Part shown: positions 256 to 9,102 of the stretch, one piece after another
How the letters are laid out: each line of letters opens with the position of its first letter
Numbering within the stretch: position 1 is the first letter of the stretch
From: an uncultured bacterium
Lineage (GTDB): Bacteria > Hydrogenedentota > Hydrogenedentia > Hydrogenedentales > CAILVY01
Assembly: GCA_937951485.1 (NCBI GenBank)
Contig: CALEDJ010000052.1
Location: forward strand, 1 to 9,280
Reading direction: 5' to 3'
Length of the DNA: 9,280 nt
Notes under the pieces: model-generated
Database searches by the model: none
Seen by the model: only the letters and a program-made list of their open reading frames with translations
Told to the model about the DNA's origin: nothing
Position numbers and translations under genes: made by a program

Positions 256-439
256 CAAAAACAGGACACCCCGATACACGGGTCAATGATGCCTCAGAAA
301 TTCCCACGGAGAGGTTTGCGTATAGGTTAAGCCCCCCACATCATCTTGATTCAACAGGATTTTCCAAGGGTTTCGGGCATGGTCTTTCACCATCCTCAAT
401 AACCTGTTTTGGACAACACTGACCACCGACATATTACTT
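256..439. other. AT-richer intergenic stretch without a convincing gene
   Basis: Between the repeats and element A the composition is visibly less GC-rich than the genes. It holds a nested imperfect inverted repeat: outer arms AACAGG (353-358) and CCTGTT (403-408), inner arms ATGGT (379-383) and ACCAT (389-393). A weak promoter-like pair for the plus strand is TTGGAC (409-414) and TATTAC (432-437) with 17 bp between; both boxes match consensus poorly. A minus-strand reading frame crosses this stretch (283-591) but runs through the element A hairpin and has no clear ribosome binding site or family match. It could be a decayed gene remnant. Confidence 0.4.
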
Positions 440-539
440 GAGGCATTTGCGAAATGGACGATTTTTGCGTTTAAGAACACGAAATATCCGGGATTTTTGA
501 TGGAATTGAGGTTTGAAACGCCCATTTCGCAAATGCCTC
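440..539 (+). repeat. Element A: 100-bp inverted-repeat element upstream of the activase operon
   Basis: Perfect 18-bp inverted arms, GAGGCATTTGCGAAATGG (440-457) and its reverse complement (522-539), enclose a 64-nt interior. Each arm is itself a near-palindrome, CATTT-GCG-AAATG. The exact centre carries AAATATCCGGGATTTT, which can form a small apical stem (GAAAT with ATTTT) around the loop ATCCGGG. The whole is 42% GC, below the neighbouring genes. Element B (8676-8775) has the same length, arm length and interior length. No target-site duplication is obvious. It could be a MITE-like non-autonomous element, a structured leader RNA, or a paired binding site for a DNA-binding protein. It ends 108 bp before the chosen activase start. 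Confidence 0.85.
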
Positions 540-647
540 TGCTTGTTTTGTGCAAGATTGAATGCCTTTTCCATGTGGATGCGCGCGTCACTTGTCGGCA
601 TGACCGACCCGATGCCGATTGGCAAGCGTCAGGCCCAATCCATTACC

Positions 648-8640: not shown

Positions 8641-8675
8641 AGTTCGCGCCGCCGAAATCTTCCTCAACGTTCGCT

Positions 8676-8775
8676 GAGGCATTTACGAAATGGGCGGTTT
8701 TGATACCGGCATTATGGAAAATCTTGGATATTTTCCATTCACATGCGAAGAAACGGTCCATTTCGTAAATGCCTC
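8676..8775 (-). repeat. Element B: 100-bp inverted-repeat element in the pgsA leader
   Basis: Perfect 18-bp inverted arms, GAGGCATTTACGAAATGG (8676-8693) and its reverse complement (8758-8775), enclose a 64-nt interior. At the exact centre is a perfect 9-bp hairpin, ATGGAAAAT (8714-8722) and ATTTTCCAT (8730-8738), with a 7-nt loop that reads ATCCAAG on the minus strand. Compared without gaps, element A (plus strand) and element B (minus strand) match at about 35 of 64 interior positions, against about 21 of 64 in the other orientation. The arms differ from those of A at one base per arm, and the change is mirrored, so pairing is kept. It lies between the predicted promoter and the pgsA start, so it would be transcribed in the leader. 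Confidence 0.85.
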
Positions 8776-8883
8776 TTGCTCTGTCCGTAATAAATGCCGC
8801 AAAAAATGCCTGCGGCCTGCCACGACAAAGGGACAACCCCGCGCCCTGCCTGTGGAAACGGCCTGAGCCGCACCCGTGACGCT
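8776..8883 (-). other. Upstream part of the pgsA leader with a small hairpin
   Basis: Between the predicted promoter and element B no gene is seen. On the minus strand GCCGCA and TGCGGC (8811-8816 and 8796-8801) form a 6-bp stem with a 9-nt loop, followed by ATTTATTA. This is too weak to call a terminator but could be a pause or attenuation site. No known riboswitch is recognisable. Confidence 0.35.
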
Positions 8884-8912: not shown

Positions 8913-9052
8913 CCGCAAGATCACAGGCGGGCGGAGCAGCCGCGCCGTCCCCCCAGCAAGCCTCAACAGGCCGAAACCTGCATTTTGAGACTTGCGCGCA
9001 ATGCCGTGGTTGGCTGCCAGGCGGCCACGGCGGCGTGCTGGAAATAATTATT

Positions 9053-9082
9053 CCGGGGACGCCCGCCTGGGGGCGTCCCCGG
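9053..9082 (-). terminator. Hairpin terminator after the right-end gene
   Basis: A perfect 12-bp GC-rich stem, CCGGGGACGCCC (9053-9064) and GGGCGTCCCCGG (9071-9082), has a 6-nt loop and can be extended by two A-T pairs. On the minus strand it lies 20 nt after the stop at 9103 and is followed by AATAATTATTT, a moderately T-rich tail. This fits a rho-independent terminator for the minus-strand gene and would insulate the pgsA promoter from read-through. Confidence 0.75.
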
Positions 9083-9102
9083 AAAGACTTACTCGACAGT
9101 TC

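Follow-up and report, generated by a model that had tools for sequence, protein, structure and literature searches.

Short, gene-less MITEs described in bacteria include the Correia elements of Neisseria and MITEAba12 of Acinetobacter, and ISAba12 has been proposed as the parent insertion sequence of the latter (PMC10969869, PMC6382973). Among insertion sequences, the IS1634 and ISH3 families are characterized by target duplications of 4–6 bp, and the ends of IS1634 follow the rule C-----YT (PMC2266710). The stretch of 9,280 nucleotides analysed here (the window), from an uncultured member of the Hydrogenedentota, carries two copies, A and B, of a 100-bp family that is almost certainly a MITE, that is, a non-autonomous, gene-less element moved in trans by the putative transposase of a related full-length insertion sequence. 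Elements of this kind are well known; the 100-bp family itself is new. No description of the family, or of the enzyme that would move it, was found in the searchable literature and databases, and a search of papers for its end sequence returned only two unrelated papers with a 12-base match.

Both copies are 100 bp long and consist of perfect 18-bp inverted arms around a 64-nt interior, with a GC content of 42% in each compared with 63% in the window (Table 1), which confirms the design reported in the initial annotation. By chance, ~1e-5 perfect 18-bp inverted repeats with spacers of up to 100 bp would be expected in the window. B is inverted relative to A, and the interiors agree at 35 of 64 positions with B read on the minus strand and at 21 of 64 on the plus strand; the earlier estimate of about 55% interior identity thus holds for the minus-strand reading. 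The match of 14 of the 16 central base pairs is confirmed. A small palindrome, CATTTGCGAAATG, lies in each arm behind a GAGG tetranucleotide. The one arm difference between the loci, a G/A change at position 10 that has its counterpart in the opposite arm of B, is likewise present as described.

Table 1. Coordinates of the two 100-bp elements, their terminal inverted repeats and their flanking duplications in the window.
Feature	Position	Strand	Remarks
Copy A of 100-bp MITE	440..539	+ (family orientation +)	Model score 123.5 bits, E 2.9e-27
Left terminal inverted repeat of A, GAGGCATTTGCGAAATGG	440..457	+	Perfect complement of 522-539
Right terminal inverted repeat of A	522..539	-	Perfect complement of 440-457
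Left decayed target-site duplication of A, TACTT	435..439	+	4/5 match to TGCTT at 540-544
Right decayed target-site duplication of A, TGCTT	540..544	+	Sequence; 4/5 match to TACTT
Copy B of 100-bp MITE, diverged sub-lineage	8676..8775	-	Model score 88.8 bits, E 2.0e-18, minus strand
Terminal inverted repeat of B, GAGGCATTTACGAAATGG	8676..8693	+	Perfect complement of 8758-8775
Opposite terminal inverted repeat of B	8758..8775	-	Perfect complement of 8676-8693
Left decayed target-site duplication of B, TCGCT	8671..8675	+	4/5 match to TTGCT at 8776-8780
Right decayed target-site duplication of B, TTGCT	8776..8780	+	Sequence; 4/5 match to TCGCT

The genome searched comprises 4.55 Mb in 77 contigs, and copies were collected from search results and retrieved stretches of sequence. 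When up to two mismatches were allowed, the arm pattern was identified 72 times in the forward and 73 times in the reverse direction, and not once in a backwards-read control. A covariance model based on 56 aligned copies recovered ~67 full-length copies at ≥66 bits, a number in which diverged copies may be undercounted because only 150 of 1,720 first-look candidates were scored. The genome search that the initial annotation had proposed yielded many further copies. Nearly all fetched arms are paired at a distance of 98–102 bp and few are single; the copies are gene-less and mostly 98–102 bp in length, and they show scattered insertions and deletions in the alignment. Their terminal inverted repeats span 16–18 bp, the arms have a mean identity to the consensus of 91% (82 copies), and the copies have a GC content of 48% versus 59% in the surrounding loci. 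Three near relatives of A, with scores of 96–97 in a global alignment (+1/0) to the 100-bp element, indicate that some of the spread has been fairly recent. A 111-bp sibling family that shares the ends but not the interior, represented by at least 10 copies, was found among the weaker model matches. Mutually similar flanks were observed around copies L057 and L078, and likewise around L018, L084 and L088, which suggests that these copies either inserted into another repeat or were duplicated along with their flanks.

The copies insert by transposition. Of 86 candidate copies, 26 are immediately flanked by an exact 5-bp direct repeat, versus 0.4 expected from shuffled partners, and 41 by a repeat with at most one mismatch, versus 2.3 expected. 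About half of the copies have no recognisable target duplication, which could reflect their age. At locus L011, a 111-bp sibling is nested in a 100-bp copy and flanked on each side by TTGATG, a 6-bp duplication of a motif that is single in uninterrupted copies: the junctions read GGATTCTTGATG, sibling, TTGATGGAACC, and undisturbed copies preserve the empty site, GGATTTTTGATGGAAC. Another small element, the ends of which (GTAACCGTTCACGGGG) we take to resemble those of IS66, lies with an 8-bp duplication, CGGGATTT, inside the 100-bp copy of L003 (1501-1763). The same junction between this second element and the 100-bp element occurs in L063 and L066, which indicates that the 263-bp composite probably spread as a unit or that the site is preferred.

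Terminal inverted repeats, many copies, 5-bp target duplications and nested insertions together identify the family as a MITE, one of the options named in the initial annotation. It has terminal repeats and a target duplication, is short, gene-less and dispersed in many copies, and is also AT-rich and intergenic, both being typical rather than strict properties of MITEs. Mobilisation in trans with a 5-bp staggered cut would follow from this anatomy. A related full-length insertion sequence would supply a DDE-type transposase that binds the inverted ends and either cuts the element out or copies it, and the element would then be joined to the 5-bp staggered cut. The ends, needed by the transposase, would be conserved and the interior free to drift, which would leave diverged interiors inside near-identical arms.

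REPINs are likewise about 100 bp long and contain two REP sequences in inverted order, each with a small palindrome, that are moved by a RAYT (Y1 tyrosine) transposase. The length of the present family and its arm architecture, in which the small palindrome stands behind GAGG as in REPs, would fit such an origin. However, single-strand Y1 transposition makes no target duplications, whereas those of the 100-bp family are clear, and the Y1_Tnp model (PF01797) had 0 matches in the 94% complete draft genome that contains the window (G000). Among 30 Y1 loci fetched from relatives, a convincing end lies nearby only at L336 in G009, and it is of the GTGCC type; the scarcity of single arms also counts against REPINs. 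The target duplications and the lack of any Y1 transposase in the genome led us to reject a REPIN/RAYT origin, which we consider extremely improbable.

The MITE copies are concentrated between genes. Based on gene calls from a purpose-written, simple codon-usage caller, 13 of 76 insertion points (17%) fall inside predicted genes, compared with 78% of points placed at random in the same loci. The copies between genes have tandem (28), divergent (27) or convergent (5) neighbours, proportions that are close to those of random intergenic points. In the window, A precedes the likely start of a radical-SAM activating-enzyme-like gene by ~115 bp, and B immediately precedes a CDP-alcohol phosphatidyltransferase gene. 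The longest reading frame of the latter begins inside an arm of B, and the true start may be further in. Other repeats and a hairpin were also observed in the window: positions 1-201 hold three tandem copies of a 67-bp unit, a fourth begins thereafter and is followed, up to 240, by a REP-like stretch, CTCCCTCTCCCTCCGGGAGAGGGGTGGGGTGAGGGG, and positions 9051-9084 encode a terminator-like, G+C-rich hairpin of 14 pairs with a T-rich tail on the minus strand. Text similar to the repeats at 1-240 is found in L063 beside another copy of the 100-bp element.

From the matched change in B, the initial annotation had suggested that pairing of the arms is constrained or keeps being restored, a suggestion that the family as a whole does not bear out. 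Across 82 copies, 227 arm positions are changed on one side only and 17 carry different changes on the two sides; the same change is present in both arms 7 times, versus 11.8 expected under independence of the arms. The test for covariation that had also been proposed was negative across the family, with an RNAalifold covariation term of only -0.17 kcal/mol. Because the arms served to find most of the copies, those with heavily altered arms are under-represented in these counts; the model search, which weighs the interior too, recovered mostly the same set of copies. One-sided decay together with nil covariation indicates that it is the sequence of the arms that is conserved and not their pairing, as would be expected for putative transposase binding sites. 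A single matched change looks like compensation when two copies are compared and, as a rule, vanishes when the whole family is counted.

The same counts bear on the proposal of a structured RNA or cis-regulatory hairpin kept by selection on pairing, which would accommodate the change in B and the finding that both window copies, taken singly, fold much more strongly than shuffled sequences (z -6.7 to -7.8). Such folding is due to the inverted repeat itself and is expected of any inverted repeat, the arm changes and covariation term are those of unconstrained arms, an Rfam scan of the window gave no match, and sites between convergent genes are not favoured (5 of 60 intergenic copies). We therefore regard selection on pairing as highly unlikely and retain the MITE interpretation.

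Perfect arms were identified in eight copies, seven with the consensus sequence and the eighth being B, the only perfect non-consensus copy. Hairpin-templated correction, in which one arm is copied from the other, would keep copies such as B perfect and would act on the MITE rather than being an alternative to it. It is suggested by B alone, where perfect ACG/CGT arms enclose a diverged interior, but the arms decay independently in the rest of the family, and B has partial relatives, the nearest being L296 and L087 with L298 in addition, so that its interior may reflect an older sub-lineage and not decay after insertion. Such correction seems unlikely. Most plausibly, B was copied from a source element in which both ends already had ACG, or its arms arose through one chance or template-switch event, rather than being maintained as an RNA or DNA structure.

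Related elements are present in several other genomes of the order. In G002 they are ~120-130 bp long, with the same or similar ends, and several copies are flanked by 5-6-bp duplications; G009 contains elements with the ends GTGCC and GAGGC, and element length in these two genomes is about 120-140 bp overall. The same or similar ends occur in fewer places in G047, G026, G010, G060 and G006, mostly as single ends, some of which may be due to chance. Across contigs of 84,980 species, the arm pattern was found at 17 loci, eight of them in Hydrogenedentota; the other nine are at about the level expected by chance for 18 fixed bases in 257 billion. The pattern was not found in viral contigs, nor were copy A or the insertion-sequence-like end of G047 found in the plasmids searched.

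No complete parent insertion sequence with these ends (GAGGCATTTGCGAAAT) was found in the genome of the window or in its order, so that mobilisation in trans remains an inference. Loci fetched by the transposase models PF07592, PF01609, PF13701 and NF033559 carry none of the family ends, and derivation from IS1380, IS4/IS5 (PF01609) or ISAzo13 was rejected for lack of shared ends in the loci scanned. Target duplications of 4-6 bp make IS1634 and ISH3 similar to the 100-bp family, and the CAGGCATT end variant of G002 conforms to the IS1634 end rule; most copies in the genome of the window, however, begin with G. An IS1634 origin was also rejected: no IS1634 gene was found in G000, and 30 loci of the order fetched with the IS1634 model, a subset of the matches, have no such ends, one having CCCAACTTCCGCAGTTA instead. 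In G010, the ISAzo13 gene next to one arm belongs to a copy with ends of its own, GGCGTTAATAAATAAAGGTA, and was rejected as the parent, and the large open reading frames beside single arms in relatives are ordinary genes. The possibility, raised at the outset, that the arms are the ends of a known insertion sequence thus met with no full-length homologue in the loci scanned.

In G002 and G047, several contigs break off 100-140 bp into an end of the family type and carry longer, insertion-sequence-like inner sequence. In three sets of these contig ends (L115, L116 and L117; L109 and L110; L111, L130 and L131), two or three contigs share an identical longer inner sequence, and these ends are probably collapsed copies of full-length insertion sequences. 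Contig breaks of this type are an effect of a multi-copy full-length element on short-read assembly, which indicates that a parent probably exists in G002 or G047; the ends could not be extended past the breaks, and neither an interior nor a transposase was found in the bins. Ends of GAGGC or GTGCC followed by ATTTGCGAAA, inner palindromes and a 5-bp duplication might represent an undescribed insertion-sequence family of Hydrogenedentota, of which the MITE would be the visible trace after its parent was lost from, or left unassembled in, the genome of the window, a proposal that we put forward only tentatively.

The family represents an abundant MITE burst, recent in part, within an uncultured phylum about which little is known. 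Its nested insertions date one family against another, and its ends are the sequence needed to find the transposase. Unlike MITEAba12 with ISAba12, it has no known parent insertion sequence. Like MITEAba12 and the Correia elements, it is short and gene-less, with terminal inverted repeats and target duplications, and it occurs in many, mostly intergenic copies that can form a stable stem-loop; it differs from both in its ends, its length and its host phylum.
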